Assembly: GCF_031020795.1 (NCBI RefSeq)
Contig: NZ_JAVHJP010000002.1
Location: 372,001-436,000 of the forward strand
From: Hydrogenophaga pseudoflava
GTDB lineage: Bacteria; Pseudomonadota; Gammaproteobacteria; Burkholderiales; Burkholderiaceae_C
Direction: 5' to 3'
DNA length: 64,000 nt
A model generated the notes under the pieces. It had not been told where the DNA came from, made no database searches, and was given only the letters and a program-made list of their open reading frames with translations. Every line of letters begins with the position of its first letter. Position 1 is the first letter of the stretch. Position numbers and translations under genes: made by a program. This document shows, piece by piece, positions 13,941-22,595 of the stretch.

Positions 13941-14095
13941 GGCGAAGATCTGGGGTCACCGGATTCAGGGCGCATCCGCTTGCGGAGTGATCGGTTCAAT
14001 GTAGCAGCACTTCGCCATGCGCATGCATCTGGCCTGAACTGTGCGAGAATCTAAAACGAGCCCATCGGTTTGGGCGTCGAAGGATGCAGCAGGTT

Positions 14096-14140
14096 ATGAC
14101 ACCGCGAACTACATCGGAGTTCTTCTTCGTGGCCCTTTGA
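14096..14140 (+). CDS. candidate attenuator leader peptide with Thr and Phe codons ([14 protein letters not shown])
   Basis: A 14-codon ORF in the leader of the thrS-pheST operon. Three codons are Thr (ACA, ACT, ACA) and three are consecutive Phe (TTC TTC TTC), the two amino acids handled by ThrRS and PheRS encoded downstream. AAGGA (14080-14084) and AGCAGG (14088-14093) precede the ATG; neither has ideal spacing. A strong terminator follows 46 bases after the stop. CGCGAAC inside the leader codons (14103-14109) can pair with GTTCGCG (14149-14155), and CGCGC there can alternatively pair with the terminator's left arm, as in classical attenuation. Compare the Phe-rich PheM peptide before E. 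coli pheST. Strong inference, not proven. Confidence 0.75.
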
Positions 14141-14185
14141 GGTCAGCAGTTCGCGCCTGCCTTTCACTCCTGTCCTGGTTCTCTC

Positions 14186-14215
14186 AAAGCGCGGCCCCTG
14201 CCGCGCTTTTTTTTT
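14186..14215 (+). terminator. intrinsic terminator/attenuator immediately before thrS
   Basis: AAAGCGCGGC (14186-14195), loop CCCT, GCCGCGCTTT (14200-14209), with T continuing to 14215. It lies 16 bases before the thrS ATG and no other plus-strand gene precedes it, so it must act within the operon leader, most likely as the attenuator coupled to the Thr/Phe leader peptide at 14096. Confidence 0.85.
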
Positions 14216-14231: not shown

Positions 14232-16139
14232 ATGCCCAATATCACGCTTCCCGATGGTTCTCAGCGCCAGTTTCCCGGCTCGGTGACAGTGGCCGACGTG
14301 GCCGCTTCCATCGGTGCTGGTCTGGCCAAGGCCGCTCTTGGCGGCAAGGTCGATGGCAAGCTGGTGGACACCAGCTTCCAAATCACCGAGGACGCCTCGC
14401 TGGCCATCGTCACGGCCAAGGATGCGGACGGTCTGGACATGATCCGCCACTCCACGGCGCACTTGCTCGCCTATGCCGTCAAGGAGTTGTTTCCCGAGGC
14501 GCAGGTCACGATCGGTCCGGTGATCGAGCATGGTTTCTACTACGACTTCTCTTACAAGCGTCCGTTCACGCCCGAGGATCTTGCGGCCATTGAAAGGAAG
14601 ATGGCGGAACTCGCTGGCAAGGATGAGCCTGTCGTTCGGCGGGTGCTGCCGCGCGACGAGGCTGTGGCGTACTTCAAGTCCTTGGGTGAGCACTACAAGG
14701 CCGAGATCATCGCCAGCATCCCCAGCAACGAAGATGTGTCCCTCTACCGTGAGGGGCGGTTTGAGGATCTGTGTCGTGGCCCGCACGTGCCCAGTACCGG
14801 CAAGCTCAAGCACTTCAAGCTGATGAAGGTCGCTGGAGCGTATTGGCGAGGCGATCACCGGAACGAGATGCTGCAACGCATCTACGGCACTGCCTGGGCC
14901 ACCAAGGACGAGCTGCAGCAGTATCTGACCATGCTGGAGGAGGCCGAAAAGCGGGATCATCGAAAACTCGGTCGGGAGCTCGATCTGTTCCACCTTGATG
15001 AACATTCGCCTGGTACCGTGTTCTGGCATCCCAAGGGGTGGACCGTTTGGCAGGCGGTGGAGCAGTACATGCGCGGCGTGTACCGGGACAATGGCTACCA
15101 AGAGGTCAAGGGCCCCCAGATCCTGGACAAGGCGTTGTGGGAGAAAACGGGGCACTGGGACAAGTACCGGGAGAACATGTTTGTGACCGACTCGGAAAAG
15201 CGCGACTACGCGCTCAAGCCGATGAACTGTCCGGGCCACATCATCATCTTCAAGCAAGGCATCAAAAGTTATCGCGACCTCCCCTTGCGCTACGGCGAGT
15301 TCGGCCAATGCCATCGCAATGAGCCCTCTGGCGGGTTGCACGGCATCATGCGGGTGCGCGCGTTCACCCAGGATGATGGTCACATTTTCTGCTTGGAGGA
15401 CCAGATTCAGTCCGAGGTGGTGGCCTTCACCACATTGCTTCAGAAGGTGTACCGGGACTTCGGCTTCACCGACATCATCTACAAGCTGTCGACCCGCCCC
15501 GAAAAGCGAATCGGTACCGAGGAAAGTTGGGATCGGGCAGAGGCGGCGCTGGCCAATGGGTTGAAGGCCTCTGGTTGCGAATTCGAATACCTTCCGGGGG
15601 AAGGTGCCTTCTACGGCCCGAAGATCGAGTACACGCTCAAAGATGCGCTGGGCCGAGAGTGGCAGTGCGGAACGATTCAGGTGGATCCAAACCTGCCCGA
15701 GCGGCTGGATGCCGAGTTTGTCGGAGAAGATGGCTCAAGGCATCGCCCCATCATGCTGCACCGCGCCATTGTGGGTAGCCTGGAGCGTTTCATCGGCATT
15801 CTGATCGAGCAGCACGCCGGTGCACTGCCGGTGTGGCTTGCACCGGTACAGGTTGTGGTGGCCGGGATCACCGATGCGCAGGCCGACTACGTCCAACAAG
15901 TGGCGAAAACACTGCAAAAACAAGGGCTTAGGGTCGAAACAGACCTGCGGAACGAAAAAATTACGTATAAAATACGGGAGCACGCGTTGCAAAAGCTGCC
16001 TTACATTCTTGTCGTGGGCGACAAGGAGAAGGCTTCTGGTGCTGTGGCTGTGCGGGCACGAGGTAACAAAGACCTCGGTGTCATGTCGCTGGAGAGCTTC
16101 TCCGATCTGATTGCGACAGACGTTTCCTCCAAGGTTTGA
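14232..16139 (+). CDS. thrS: threonine--tRNA ligase
   Basis: Charges tRNA-Thr; cytoplasmic class II synthetase, 635 residues (family ~640). Domain order is normal: N-terminal TGS domain ([20 protein letters not shown]), the editing domain with [15 protein letters not shown], the catalytic core with MNCPGH (zinc-ligand Cys) and [19 protein letters not shown] (motif 2), then the C-terminal anticodon-binding domain ([14 protein letters not shown]). ATG 14232 fits the family start. Only a weak ribosome site is seen; the bases before it are the attenuator's T-tract. First gene of the operon. Confidence 0.98.
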
Positions 16140-16200: not shown

Positions 16201-16235
16201 GTGTTGTCTGAATCGCCCACGTCAAGGAACTCACC

Positions 16236-16838
16236 ATAGCTACCAACTTTCGCGACCGCCGCCAGCGTGAAGAGCGTGCACACCGTCTGAACCGGGAAAT
16301 CATGGCCCCCGAGGTTCGCCTCAACGGCCCCGAAAACGAGCCTTTGGGCATCGTGAGTCTCCAGGAAGCGTTGCGCATGGCCGGCGAGCTGGACGTGGAT
16401 TTGGTCGAGATCGCGGCCACGGCAAATCCGCCGGTGTGCCGGCTGATGGACTACGGCAAGTTCAAGTACCAGGAGCAGAAGAAGGCCGCCGAAGCCAAGG
16501 CCAAGCAGACGGTCATTGAGATCAAGGAAGTCAAGTTCCGTCCCGGTACCGACGACGGTGACTACAACATCAAGATGCGCAACATTCGTCGTTTTCTCGA
16601 CGACGGGGACAAATGCAAGATCACGCTGCGGTTCCGTGGGCGAGAAATTACCCATCAAGAGTTGGGTCTCGCACTTCTCAACCGCATCAGGGATGAACTG
16701 GGCGATGCCATCATCGTTGAGCAGTTCCCCAAGCTGGAAGGGCGGCAGATGATCATGATGATTGCGCCCGGCAAGAAGAAAGCGGGTGGCGGTGCTCCCA
16801 AGGCTGTGGCGGAGTCCTCCGCCCAGCCGGCGGCCTGA
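16236..16838 (+). CDS. infC: translation initiation factor IF-3 (AUA start)
   Basis: IF-3 binds the 30S subunit and rejects wrong start codons. 200 residues: N-domain ([23 protein letters not shown]), linker helix rich in Lys, C-domain ([20 protein letters not shown]), ending in an Ala/Gly tail. The first in-frame ATG (16302) is 22 codons in and would remove the usual IF-3 N-terminus. ATA at 16236 gives [20 protein letters not shown], typical of betaproteobacterial IF-3, with AAGGA seven bases before it. Non-standard infC starts are known (AUU in E. coli) and allow IF-3 to repress its own translation. Second gene of the operon. Confidence 0.95.
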
Positions 16839-16936
16839 CGGGCACCAGCACGTCGGGTTGTCACAGGACAGGATTGATCGGGCAGGCTTTGTCTTCCTGT
16901 CCGATCGAGGTCGGTTGCATAAGCAGCGGACCGAAA

Positions 16937-16958
16937 AGAGCTCTCCTTGGAGGGCTCT
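16937..16958 (+). other. hairpin in the infC-rpmI spacer, possible L20 control element
   Basis: AGAGCTCT (16937-16944) pairs with AGGGCTCT (16951-16958) with one G-U, loop CCTTGG. It sits in the ~200-base spacer before rpmI. In E. coli, L20 represses rpmI-rplT by binding RNA in this place; a comparable role here is only inferred from position. No T-tract follows. Confidence 0.3.
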
Positions 16959-17036
16959 CAAAAAGTGGCTCGGGGCCAGCAAGTCCGCGGAAGGTTCGCG
17001 GCGCCTCACGAGCACAAATGAAAAAGGAGCATTCAC

Positions 17037-17240
17037 ATGCCCAAAATGAAGACCAAGAGCAGCGCGAAGAAGCGTTTTCGCGTTCGTCCCGGTGGCACCG
17101 TCAAGCGCGGTCAAGCCTTCAAGCGTCACATCCTGACCAAGAAGACCACCAAGAACAAGCGCCATCTGCGTGGTGCGGTGACTGTTCATGAGACCAACAT
17201 GGGTCACATGGCACAGATGCTGCCCGGCATGGGCATTTGA
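17037..17240 (+). CDS. rpmI: 50S ribosomal protein L35
   Basis: 67 residues, very basic: [17 protein letters not shown] start and the [18 protein letters not shown] motif are diagnostic. AAAAAGGAG lies close upstream of the ATG. It follows infC after a structured ~200-base spacer and precedes rplT by 24 bases, the universal rpmI-rplT order. Length is normal. Confidence 0.98.
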
Positions 17241-17264
17241 TCAACGACGAACAAGGAGCAACAC

Positions 17265-17624
17265 ATGCCTCGCGTCAAACGTGGTGTAACGGCACGCGCC
17301 CGTCACAAAAAAGTTCTCGCCCTTGCCAAGGGTTTCCGCGGTCGCCGCGGCAACGTCTTCCGCATCGCCAAACAGGCGGTGATGAAGGCCGGTCAGTACG
17401 CCTACCGTGACCGCCGCACCAAGAAGCGCGTCTTCCGTCAGCTGTGGATCGCGCGTATCAATGCCGGTGCACGCGCTTGCGGCCTGACGTACAGCCAGTT
17501 CGCCAATGGCCTGAAGAAGGCCCAGATCGAGATCGACCGCAAGGTCCTGGCCGATCTGGCCGTCAATGACGTCGCTGCCTTCAACAGCATCGTGGAGCAA
17601 GTCAAAGCCAAGCTGGCCGCTTGA
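17265..17624 (+). CDS. rplT: 50S ribosomal protein L20
   Basis: 119 residues, the standard length. The opening [30 protein letters not shown] and the [23 protein letters not shown] segment are unmistakable. L20 is an early assembly protein binding 23S rRNA and, in E. coli, an autoregulator of this gene pair. AAGGAG is close to the ATG. Two successive hairpins follow the stop before pheS. Confidence 0.98.
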
Positions 17625-17632
17625 TTCACGAC

Positions 17633-17662
17633 TGTCAACGCCGGCTTCGGCTGGCGTTGACA
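17633..17662 (+). other. stable hairpin after rplT (13-bp stem, UUCG loop)
   Basis: TGTCAACGCCGGC (17633-17645), tetraloop TTCG, GCTGGCGTTGACA (17650-17662): a 13-bp stem with one G-U. It begins eight bases after the rplT stop. No T-tract follows, so it is not a terminator alone; it may protect the upstream mRNA or pause polymerase before the next hairpin. Confidence 0.6.
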
Positions 17663-17671
17663 ACGTCGCTC

Positions 17672-17721
17672 AAAGGGGTTGAGGCTTGAGGGGTTCCCTC
17701 GCTGCTCTCAGCCCCTTTTTT
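17672..17721 (+). terminator. intrinsic terminator (possibly partial) between rplT and pheS
   Basis: AAAGGGGTTGAG (17672-17683) pairs with CTCAGCCCCTTT (17707-17718) with one G-U. An inner GAGGG/CCCTC hairpin (17688-17700) extends it. The T-tract runs 17716-17721. It lies 21 bases before the pheS ATG. No Phe-rich leader ORF is visible here, so it probably reduces rather than stops transcription into pheST. Confidence 0.7.
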
Positions 17722-17742
17722 GTTTTCCCGCACGAGACACAC

Positions 17743-18795
17743 ATGAACGAGTTGGACGCACTGGTCGACAGCGCACGCGCCGCGTTCGCGCAGGCCGTCA
17801 CTCCCGCCGATCTGGAAAACGCCAAGGCGCAGTACATCGGCAAATCGGGTCGCATCACCGAACTGATGAAGGGCATGGCTGCCCTGTCGGTGGAGGAGAA
17901 AAAGACCCGTGGGGCGGCCATCAACGTGGCCAAGCAGGCGATTGAAGCCGCGCTCACCGAGCGCCGGCAGGCGCTGGCCGCAGCCGAACTGGAAGCCCAG
18001 TTGAAGGCCGAGGCGCTGGACGTGAGCCTGCCGGGCCGTCAGCGTGGCCAGGGTGGTCTGCACCCGGTGAGCCTGACGCTGGAACGCATTGAAGCCATCT
18101 TCGGTTCGCAGGGCTTCGAAGTGGCCGAGGGCCCCGAGATCGAGTCCGACTGGTTCAACTTCACCGCACTGAACACGCCCGAGGACCACCCGGCGCGTTC
18201 CATGCACGACACCTTTTACGTGGAGGGCGGCAGTGCCAAGGCGCCGAACCTGCTGCGCACCCACACCAGCCCGATGCAGATCCGCCACGCGGTGCAGCAC
18301 GTCAAGCGCCACCGCGCCGCTCTTGACGCAGGCTTGCCGATGCCCGAAATCCGCGTGATCGCGCCGGGCCGCACCTACCGCGTCGACAGCGACGCGACCC
18401 ATTCGCCCATGTTCCACCAGTGCGAGGGCCTTTGGATCGGCGAGAACGTGAGCTTCAAAGACCTCAAGGTCGTGTTCACCGATTTCTGCCGCACCTTCTT
18501 CGAGTCCGACGATCTGGTGCTGCGTTTCCGTCCCAGCTTCTTCCCGTTCACCGAGCCCAGCGCCGAGATCGACATCCAGTTCCAGAGCGGCCCACTGGCC
18601 GGTCGCTGGCTGGAAGTGGCCGGCTCCGGCCAGGTGCACCCGAACGTGGTGCGCAACATGGGTCTGGACCCCGAGCGCTACATCGGCTTCGCTTTTGGCA
18701 TGGGGCCGGACCGCCTGACCATGCTGCGTTACGGCGTGAACGACCTGCGCCTGTTCTTCGACGGCGACATTCGCTTCCTGTCGCAGTTCCGTTGA
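17743..18795 (+). CDS. pheS: phenylalanine--tRNA ligase alpha subunit
   Basis: Catalytic subunit of the alpha2beta2 PheRS; charges tRNA-Phe. 350 residues (family 330-350). N-terminal coiled-coil ([18 protein letters not shown]) that binds tRNA, then the class II core: [14 protein letters not shown], the FYVEGG and [12 protein letters not shown] motif 2 region, and the motif 3 [16 protein letters not shown] and GFGMGPDRL-type ending ([16 protein letters not shown]). ATG 17743 is chosen over an in-frame upstream start because the latter would lie inside the terminator stem. pheT follows after 20 bases. Confidence 0.98.
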
Positions 18796-18815
18796 AGTCT
18801 TGTTGAGCTGAACCC

Positions 18816-21242
18816 ATGCAATTCCCCGAATCCTGGCTGCGTGCCTTCTGCAATCCGCCCCTGACCAGCCAGCAGCTGGCCGATACCCTGACCATGGCCG
18901 GTCTGGAGGTTGAGGAGCTGCGCCCGTTTGCGCCTGCTTTCACTGGTGTGGTGGTGGGTCGGATCCTGAGCGCCGAGCAACACCCCAATGCCGACCGTCT
19001 GCGCGTGTGCCAGGTGGACGTGGGGTGGGATGCTCCGTTGAACATCGTCTGTGGTGCGCCCAACGCCCGCGCCGGCATCAGGGTGCCGTGTGCCACCGTC
19101 GGGGCTTTGCTGCCGCCCGGAGAAGATGGCAAGCCGTTTGCGATCAAGCTGGGCAAGCTGCGCGGCGTCGAGAGTCAGGGCATGTTGTGCTCGGCCAAGG
19201 AACTGCAGATCTCGGAAGAGAGCAATGGCCTGCTGGAACTGGGCGACGACGCGGTGATCGGCCGCAACATCCGCGAGCAACTGGGTCTGGACGACATGCT
19301 GTTCACGCTCAAGCTCACGCCCAATCTGGCGCACTGCCTGAGCGTGTACGGCATCGCGCGCGAGGTGTCGGCGCTGACCGACACGCCGCTGCAGCAACCC
19401 ACGCTCCCCCAGGTCGCCGTGCAGGTGCAGGACCGTCTGCCGGTGAGCGTGCAGGCGCCTGACCTGTGTGGCCGTTTCAGTGGCCGCGTGGTGCGTGGTG
19501 TCAACACGCAGGCACAGACGCCGGCCTGGATGGTCGAGCGCCTGGCGCGCTGCGGCCAGCGCAGCATTTCGCCGCTGGTGGACATCTCCAACTACGTGAT
19601 GTTCGAGCTGGGCCGCCCCTCGCACATCTTCGACCTCGACAAGATCCATGGCGGCCTGCAGGTGCGCTGGGGCCGAGAGGGTGAACAGCTCAAGCTGCTC
19701 AATGGCAACACCGTCACGGTGGACGCCGAAGTGGGTGTGATCGCCGACGACAAGGAAGTCGAATCGCTGGCCGGCATCATGGGCGGTGACGCCACTGCGG
19801 TGTCCGACGACACACAGAACATCTTCATCGAGGCCGCCTTCTGGTGGCCCAAATCGATTGCTGGCCGTTCACGCCGCTACAACTTCAGCACCGACGCGGG
19901 TCACCGTTTCGAGCGTGGCGTGGACCCGTCCACCACCGTCGAACACGTCGAGCGCATCACGCAACTGGTGCTGGACATCTGTGGCGGCCAGGCCGGCCCG
20001 CTGGACGACCAGACCCTGGCGCTGCCCGAAGGCACGCCGGTGACGCTGCGCGTGGCCCGTGCGGCCAAAGTAATTGGCATGCCCGTCACGCAAGACCAGT
20101 GTGCTGAAGCGCTGCGACGCCTGGGCCTGGAGGTGACAGAAGGCGAAGGCACCGTCACCGTGGCGCCGCCCGCTTTCCGCTTCGACCTGCAGATCGAGGA
20201 AGACCTGATCGAGGAAGTGGCGCGCGTGATCGGCTACGAACAGCTGCCGACCAACCCGCCGCTGGCACCCATCACCGCCAAGCTGCGCGCTGAGTCGAAA
20301 CGCGGTCCGTTCGCGGTGCGCCGCCAACTGGCGCAACTGGGTTACCAGGAGACCATCAACTTCAGCTTCGTCGAAGAGCGCTGGGAGCGTGAGCTGGCGG
20401 GCAACGCTGACCCGATCAAGCTGCTGAACCCCATCGCCAGCCAGATGAGCGTGATGCGCTCATCGCTCCTGGGCAGCCTGATCGCCGTGCTCAAGTTCAA
20501 CCTCGACCGCAAGGCACAGCGTGTGCGCCTGTTCGAGCTGGGCCGCGTGTTCCGGAAGGATGCTTCGGTGCAGGACAGCGACACCAGCGTCGCTGGTTTC
20601 GACCAGCCCATGAGAGTGGCCGGTCTGGCTTATGGCGGGGTGGACAGCCTGCAGTGGGGCAGCGCAGAGCGCAACATCGATTTCTTCGACATCAAGGGCG
20701 ACGTGCAGGCGCTGCTGGCGCCGCTTCAGGCCCTGTTCAAGCCGGCAGAGCACCCGGCCATGCACCCGGGTCGTTGCGCCAGTGTCTGGTTGGATGATCG
20801 TTGCATCGGCCATGTGGGCGAACTGCACCCGAAGTGGCGCCAGTCCTACGAGCTGGCGCAGGCGCCGGTGATGTTCGAACTCGCGCTGGATGCCGTGCTG
20901 CACCGCGATGTTCCTGCGTTCAGTCCCGTGAGCCGCCAGCAGCCTGTGGAGCGCGACATTGCCGTCGTGGTCAAGGAGTCGGTGACGCACGCTGCCGTGA
21001 TGGATGCGATCCGCGCGGGGGGCAGCGAGCTTCTTCGCGACGCCGTGCTGTTCGATGTGTACCGGCCCAAGAAGACCGCAGAGGCGGTGGCGGCCGGCAG
21101 CCTGGCGGCGGACGAAAAGAGCCTGGCCGTTCGCCTCACGCTCAGCCGTGAGGACGCTACACTGACTGAGCAGGAGATTGAGGCGGCTGTCAAAGGTGCG
21201 CTCGTTTCGTTGGAGCAGCGCGTGGGAGCACGCTTGCGTTGA
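18816..21242 (+). CDS. pheT: phenylalanine--tRNA ligase beta subunit
   Basis: Large subunit of PheRS, 808 residues (family ~800). It begins [11 protein letters not shown], followed by the EMAP/tRNA-binding fold ([30 protein letters not shown]), the B3/B4 editing domain ([28 protein letters not shown]), the B5 domain, and the C-terminal FDX-ACB anticodon-binding domain ([18 protein letters not shown]). No frameshift is seen. Its stop lies 38 bases before the ihfA start, so ihfA is co-transcribed. Confidence 0.98.
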
Positions 21243-22295: not shown

Positions 22296-22372
22296 CGGCG
22301 TGTAGCGCAGCCTGGTAGCGCACTTGCATGGGGTGCAAGGGGTCGCGAGTTCGAATCCCGCCACGCCGACCA
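22296..22372 (+). tRNA. tRNA-Pro (anticodon GGG)
   Basis: 77-base cloverleaf: acceptor CGGCGTG/CACGCCG, D-arm GCGC...GCGC, anticodon stem CTTGC/GCAAG with loop ATGGGGT (anticodon GGG), T-arm GCGAG TTCGAAT CCCGC (outer G-C pairs with one weak pair) and an encoded CCA end. It decodes CCC and CCU. A TATAAT precedes it and a terminator follows nine bases after the CCA. Confidence 0.97.
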
Positions 22373-22380
22373 AAAACGCA

Positions 22381-22414
22381 AAAAGCCCGGAGTTTCACGA
22401 CTCCGGGCTTTTTT
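22381..22414 (+). terminator. rho-independent terminator of tRNA-Pro
   Basis: AAAAGCCCGGAGT (22381-22393), loop TTCACG, ACTCCGGGCTTTT (22400-22412), then more T. The 13-bp perfect stem begins nine bases after the tRNA. Confidence 0.93.
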
Positions 22415-22595
22415 GTTTTTGCATGGCCCAGTCCTCCATAGCAGATTGGTGGACCACGACTGTTTTAACCCTGCTCACCAGCATTCGTCTCAGAACCACC
22501 ACCCGCAGCGGGGGGGGGCCAACCGGTACGGACATCGCGTCGTGGGAATGCACCTTGCCCTCCATCGTTTCTATCGATCCGACTGGAGCCGCACC

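Follow-up and report, generated by a model that had tools for sequence, protein, structure and literature searches.

A putative threonine-codon leader peptide attenuator upstream of thrS in Hydrogenophaga pseudoflava and other Burkholderiales

The window analysed in this study was the whole 64,000 nt stretch of Hydrogenophaga pseudoflava DNA at positions 372,001-436,000 of the forward strand of NZ_JAVHJP010000002.1 (assembly GCF_031020795.1), which is part of contig C12 in a genome of 5.0 Mb. The leader parts and the genes described below lie on its + strand. Six genes, presumably thrS, infC, rpmI, rplT, pheS and pheT, were arranged in the order thrS-infC-rpmI-rplT-pheS-pheT. The first gene of the operon, thrS, which encodes threonyl-tRNA synthetase (ThrRS), occupied 14232-16139, and infC, rpmI, rplT, pheS and pheT occupied 16236-21242, as read from the open reading frames (ORFs) and the loci of relatives. 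The preliminary description had placed thrS and pheST in one operon, which was confirmed in the window; moreover, the same order was found in 67 of the 67 named loci in which all genes from thrS to pheS were seen. The other 13 of the 80 named loci, in which some genes were missing or the locus was cut, were left out of this count. The contigs closest by thrS, among the named ones, belonged to Acidovorax, Comamonas, Rhodoferax and others. The apparent start codon of infC was a non-canonical ATA (16236-16238) behind AAGGAA (region 16224-16238). In E. coli, infC starts with AUU, which serves the autoregulation of IF3.

A leader ORF with its TGA stop was located upstream of thrS at 14096-14140 by sequence reading and by comparison with the leaders of relatives. 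Its 14 codons and stop were ATG ACA CCG CGA ACT ACA TCG GAG TTC TTC TTC GTG GCC CTT TGA, comprising three Thr codons and three consecutive Phe codons, exactly as the preliminary description had read them. A near-invariant core, GGTTATGACACCGCGAAC (14092-14109), spanned the start codon, the Thr codons at positions 2 and 5 and a stretch termed segment 1. One copy of this core was present in the window, whereas 0.04 copies were expected at up to three mismatches. A probable Shine-Dalgarno sequence of the leader, AAGGA, was positioned at 14080-14084, and relatives had GAGAAAGGC. The sequence TGTGCGAGAAT at 14040-14050 is, by its position, a probable extended -10 region, and the leader transcript would probably start at about 14057; a sigma-70 pattern scan found no site. 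Segment 1, CGCGAAC (14103-14109), was paired in the predicted fold with segment 2, GTTCGCGC (14149-14156), in which CGCG begins 11 nt past the leader stop. The complementary segments that had been claimed were present at their positions, namely GTTCGCG at 14149-14155 opposite segment 1 and CGCGC at 14152-14156 opposite GCGCG at 14189-14193 of the terminator arm. The terminator scan located the intrinsic terminator, which comprises segments 3 and 4 and a T run, at 14186-14215, and such a terminator recurred with the leaders of relatives. Its stem (14186-14209) had 10 pairs, of which 7 were G-C, and a loop of 4, and the T run extended to 14215, so that, as previously stated, 16 bases separate the terminator from the thrS ATG at 14232. 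The scan of 4.1 kb gave five terminator-like sites versus 4.8 in shuffled sequences, which was no excess; among the scanned sites, the leader terminator had the most pairs (10 vs. 5-6). The folding of the window leader gave z = -2.7.

The distribution of the leader was evaluated in the loci of relatives. Among 129 loci picked solely by thrS (L001-L130 minus L083, in which thrS was cut and which was left out of the leader counts), the leader was found in 105 (88/109 and 17/20), and its occurrence at thrS exceeds chance. It was not found by rule in the other 24, two of which (L100 and L113) carried diverged leaders that were scored as misses. An enlarged set was formed by adding 28 motif-chosen loci of the genus and 30 loci chosen by a covariance model, in which a leader was present in 163 of 187 loci with 148 distinct ORFs; because L131-L160 were chosen by motif and L161-L190 by the model, hits there are uninformative on frequency. 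All but 17 of the 148 distinct leaders started with MTPRT. The diverged leaders included MIRAPRTTTASERQ (Ralstonia) and MISRPTRTTTGNFRPMSR (Bordetella), together with forms beginning MTPLTT and MRPPTT, and RTTT was retained in the diverged leaders of Ralstonia, Bordetella and Achromobacter. The constancy of ATG and CG[AG]AC is not independent evidence since both were fixed by the search pattern. Around the first set of 77 distinct leaders, AAAGG stood at most 25 nt upstream of ATG in 70, a hairpin with a T run followed downstream in 74, and CGCGG was contained in the 5' arm or loop of the terminator in 71 of the 74 leaders with a terminator. Of 161 leaders, 136 had a -10-like hexamer at a distance of 26-75 nt before the ATG, which was 45-54 nt in 93 of them (counts made without a shuffled control), and a TGTG.GA.AAT-like box was seen upstream of the leader in 25 of 28 congeners. 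The presence of -10-like boxes upstream suggests that the leader is probably transcribed.

In a sample of 60 genomes of the genus, 45 contained the sequence GGTTATGACACCGCGAAC with at most two mismatches; 43 of these had an exact copy, and one of the 43 had two. With nearly one copy per genome, it is usable as a marker to annotate thrS leaders. The covariance model, which was built from 67 leaders (67 of the 74 references used in the alignment), matched 72 of 300 genomes at E <= 0.001 at the order level, 38 of them with at least 40 bits. In the best 30 of these 72 matches, thrS was downstream in all 30; chance may account for those order-level matches that scored less than about 40 bits. At the class level, 13 of 274 genomes were matched at E <= 0.001, and 3 of these belonged to the family of the window. 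The other 10 genomes contributed 11 loci, none with thrS and the best with 36.6 bits, and these loci outside the order were taken as chance matches for that reason. Within the genomes sampled, the element was confined to Burkholderiales.

Several individual loci departed from the common arrangement. In eight leaderless loci of Limnohabitans and others (L013, L032, L034, L035, L056, L061, L063 and L065), the terminator before thrS was kept, and a TAAAAT or GAAAAT box was situated only 22-35 nt upstream of it. In a Polaromonas contig (L054), the leader core was present but looked as if it were decaying, its start codon being replaced by ATA and its codon 5 changed. The thrS-infC pair was kept and an RTTT leader was present in six loci of Bordetella and Achromobacter (L086, L088, L090, L092, L093 and L099), in which no match to rpmI, rplT, pheS or pheT was obtained in the approximately 5 kb downstream. 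A tRNA-Val(GAC) gene was seen in 17 of the 30 order-level loci (L168-L190), close upstream of the thrS leader in 16, and L168 had two such genes about 1 kb from the thrS leader; the promoter of the tRNA gene may drive thrS in these loci.

The codons of the leader were examined for the amino acid that they may sense. At least two Thr codons were present in 77 of the 77 distinct leaders and at least three in 70, the Thr at codon 5 being linked to the pattern used in the search. Codon 6 was a Thr codon in 64 of the 77 (ACG 26, ACA 18, ACC 11 and ACT 9), and its three positions held 1.36, 1.19 and 0.09 bits of information (n = 77); that is, the third position was free. Past the Arg-Thr core, Thr made up 270 of 1225 codons in frame (22%), whereas the other two frames had 15 and 44 of 1077 (1.4% and 4.1%). 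The mean for nucleotide shuffles was 94, and 270 was never reached in 1000 of them; shuffling within codon positions gave 194, and 270 was never reached in 500. For 27 leaders of the genus, Thr past the core numbered 20 versus 18.4 in the codon-position null, which was not exceeded, and for 42 distinct leaders of the genus Thr was counted 37 times in 342 codons in frame versus 2 and 8 in 300 out of frame. Just the two core Thr codons were present in 18 of these 42 leaders, in which the core was itself the search motif. Glu and Met past the core were frame-biased as well, with 85/1225 (6.9%) versus 8 and 44/1077 (0.7% and 4.1%) for Glu and 28/1225 (2.3%) versus 1 and 2/1077 (0.1% and 0.2%) for Met, a bias that speaks against the threonine reading. 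Judged by these comparisons, the Thr codons of the leader look like codons selected in frame. At the sequence level, the locus had a short translatable ORF enriched in the codons of the regulated amino acid, and an intrinsic terminator between the leader and the first gene.

According to our preferred reading, to which a probability of about 0.75 is assigned, the leader would be a ribosome-mediated attenuator of the trp, his and thr operon type, placing thrS and the genes downstream under the control of charged tRNA-Thr. With enough Thr-tRNA, the ribosome would reach the stop codon and cover segment 2, and the terminator would form. With Thr-tRNA in short supply, the ribosome would stall at Thr codon 2, 5 or 6 and cover segment 1; segment 2 would then pair with the 5' terminator arm, letting transcription continue into thrS. 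When the leader is not translated, segment 1 would pair with segment 2, and the terminator would form again. The operon would hence be raised when charged threonine tRNA is scarce. The Thr codons as the sensing codons and the terminator appear well supported by the comparison of leaders.

The base-pair switch was explored by pairing and folding tests. In the 148 distinct leaders, the first CGCG after the stop codon was at an offset of 10-13 in 63 (at 11 in 45 of these) and elsewhere in 53, and no CGCG was found within 40 nt after the stop in 32. A CGCG at 10-13 nt past the stop would be covered by a ribosome paused at the stop codon. Other groups had TAGTCGGCCGCGG or CGCTAGTCG at the site of segment 2, and inspection by eye showed that CGCTAGTCG could form pairs with CGGCTAG of the terminator. 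Three of the 77 leaders, in which no terminator was recognised, were left out of the folding sets. When the RNA under the ribosome was masked, moving the ribosome from the stop to codon 6 increased the upstream pairing of the 5' terminator arm in 54 of 74 leaders versus 2. For the window leader with the RNA behind the ribosome free to pair, the response was slight, with values of 0.65 for a ribosome at codon 6, 0.52 for one at the stop and 0.57 in the absence of a ribosome. A control with a shuffled spacer paired as much (0.554 vs. 0.540 observed). In the duplex test, at p 0.05 against shuffles, pairing was found between segments 1 and 2 in 19/74 and between segments 2 and 3 in 24/74, and in the control region in 20/74. 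Since the shuffled spacer and the control region match the signal, the masked-ribosome folding is unspecific and is not usable as support. The covariation between segments 1 and 2 was evaluated for 63 distinct pairs from 163 leaders, the rest being off-pattern or repeated pairs, and was totalled over positions 8-11 because five pair positions were fixed by the search pattern. It was weak, with 124 pairs versus 112.9 and this value reached in 47 of 2000 permutations, in which relatedness was not removed. The alternative helix is therefore a step that we infer, and its modelled pairing was not separated from chance pairing by the folding controls.

The preliminary description had interpreted the locus as an attenuator for both Thr and Phe, in which Phe-tRNA is sensed via codons 9-11 and pheST is controlled together with thrS. 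The attenuator part of this interpretation was upheld, with the leader ORF, Thr codons and terminator widely kept, and the dual Thr/Phe part was not. The FFF run is truly present in the window leader, pheST lies inside the operon, and, when the window leader was modelled with a ribosome at codons 9-11, the arm remained as able to pair upstream as with a ribosome at codon 7 or 8 (0.57-0.60). Moreover, Phe past the core was counted 74 times versus 26 in nucleotide shuffles (never reached in 1000) and 32.9 in codon-position shuffles (never reached in 500), a factor over the codon-position shuffle larger than that of Thr, and the genus subset of 27 leaders gave 22 versus 10.2 in codon-position shuffles (never in 500). 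Against this, the relatives did not keep Phe codons alongside their Thr codons. Phe was absent in 46 of the 77 distinct leaders, and at least three Phe codons occurred only in the window's leader in this first set; it was missing in 83 of the 148 distinct leaders, with FFF in two, the window and one congener. In the 44 leaders of the window's genus (42 distinct), 21 had no Phe codon, 17 had one, two had two and two had three, the last with FFF. Loss of the Thr and Phe codons from leaders that keep the terminator, which the preliminary description had named as evidence to the contrary, was encountered for the Phe half alone. Furthermore, the in-frame rate of Phe, 74/1225 (6.0%), was close to the out-of-frame rates of 44 and 48/1077 (4.1% and 4.5%), as in the 42 leaders of the genus with 27/342 (7.9%) in frame versus 13 and 18/300 (4.3% and 6.0%) out of frame. 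The Phe triplets were almost as frequent out of frame, so the excess over the shuffles is mostly T-rich wording; a weak in-frame excess remains (74/1225 vs. 92/2154, relatedness not removed). Dual sensing was thus unsupported, as the relatives did not keep the Phe run and the out-of-frame control removed most of the shuffle excess. The Phe run of the window most likely reflects T-rich sequence and not a second sensor, and the dual attenuator is considered most improbable. The operon with pheST was common to the 67 scored relatives, and the need for control by Phe should therefore be common too; a sensor of Thr and Phe limited to Hydrogenophaga pseudoflava or few relatives is equally improbable.

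Control of pheST may be partly separate from the leader. Of 68 rplT-pheS spacers, 58 contained a hairpin followed by a T run, including that of the window (about 17673-17722), where the terminator scan missed it because the loop exceeds the length allowed by the scan. On account of this hairpin, the leader is possibly not the sole gate to pheST, and pheST may be set apart from the remaining operon. A closed ORF of 7-40 aa with at least three Phe was present in 10 of the 68 rplT-pheS spacers, and no closed Phe-rich ORF of the pheM type was found directly before pheS in the spacer of the window.

The leader core has properties that pairing and codon sensing do not account for, and these bear on two further explanations. 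GGTT preceded the start codon in 74 of the 77 distinct leaders, codons 2-4 were nearly fixed as ACA CCG CGA (ACA at codon 2 in 74/77, CCG at codon 3 in 75/77), and the silent third positions of ACA and CCG, which like GGTT were not set by the search pattern, were almost invariant. Pairing with segment 2 accounts for CGCGAAC at most, and the constancy of GGTT and of these silent positions is not predicted by a plain codon-sensing attenuator. This constancy would be expected of an autogenous element in which ThrRS or another factor binds the core and sets termination or the translation of the leader, and RNAalifold predicted a GGU:ACC hairpin whose loop contains the start codon. The alignment gave no covarying support for this hairpin because it hardly varies, and a Thr codon 6 with a free third position would not be needed by a protein operator; the autogenous element is hence regarded as very unlikely. 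The near-fixed ACA CCG CGA may also be read as part of a general translation sensor, in which any slow translation (Pro, Arg, CGA and ACA codons) antiterminates and Thr is one trigger. The model, in which the arm could pair upstream similarly well wherever the ribosome stood between codons 2 and 9 (0.68-0.50), and the frame bias shared by Glu and Met agree with such a sensor. However, no other residue past the core came near Thr in frequency (270/1225), and codon 6 varied among Thr synonyms alone in 64/77, which makes a general sensor quite unlikely. Codon sensing may also be combined with a second element at the RNA level, whereby GGTTATGACACCGCGAAC would be recognised by a trans-acting factor, either ThrRS or the initiating ribosome in a special manner. 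This combination is unlikely; if true, thrS would be set by tRNA charging and by a factor at GGTTATGACACCGCGAAC together. The attenuator that senses charged tRNA-Thr is retained as the preferred reading.

No paper that recognisably describes a thrS leader peptide in these bacteria was found in the literature searched, and Lopatovskaya et al. (2010) and Vitreschak et al. (2004) may list one. PMC4833913 and PMC10272879 cite the former, which deals with attenuation of amino acid and aminoacyl-tRNA operons. The available text of PMC2965389, tables apart, mentions the autoregulation of E. coli ThrRS and names no thrS leader peptide in these bacteria. The T-box covariance model had no match at the leader in the window (E <= 1) or in the loci of five relatives (E <= 0.5), and the other Rfam families likewise had no match at the leader in the window and these five loci. 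The Thr_leader model RF00506 did not match the thrS leader, and its only hit in the window was sub-threshold (22320-22417). The present analysis gives a sequence-based account of how threonyl-tRNA synthetase may be set by a leader peptide in many Burkholderiales. The leader is short, usually occurs once per genome, is easy to test and has no matching Rfam model. Moreover, the tempting reading as a dual sensor was corrected, as the Phe run was not kept by relatives.

The proposed leader can be compared with several known systems. In E. coli, the Phe-rich leader pheM with its terminator attenuates pheST. The thrS leader resembles it in the short ORF rich in cognate codons, the terminator, the aminoacyl-tRNA synthetase target and the gene neighbourhood. 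It differs in that it precedes thrS and that Phe is not conserved, and the pheS spacer of the window has a hairpin and T run without a closed Phe-rich ORF. The thrL leader precedes thrABC, and its Rfam family (RF00506) shares with the thrS leader a Thr-rich leader and a terminator. The way of working proposed for the thrS leader is the same as that of pheM, thrL and hisL. In E. coli, ThrRS binds the leader of its own mRNA at the thrS operator, which is not known to have a leader peptide or terminator. Both systems would control thrS via the mRNA leader, by protein binding there and by a leader peptide and terminator here. In Gram-positive bacteria, the T-box leaders of thrS provide control by tRNA charging through antitermination, and the Burkholderiales leader would likewise place thrS under tRNA-charging control via antitermination. 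Hence, in contrast to the protein autoregulation of E. coli and the T-boxes of Gram-positive bacteria, threonyl-tRNA synthetase in many Burkholderiales may be set by a leader peptide.
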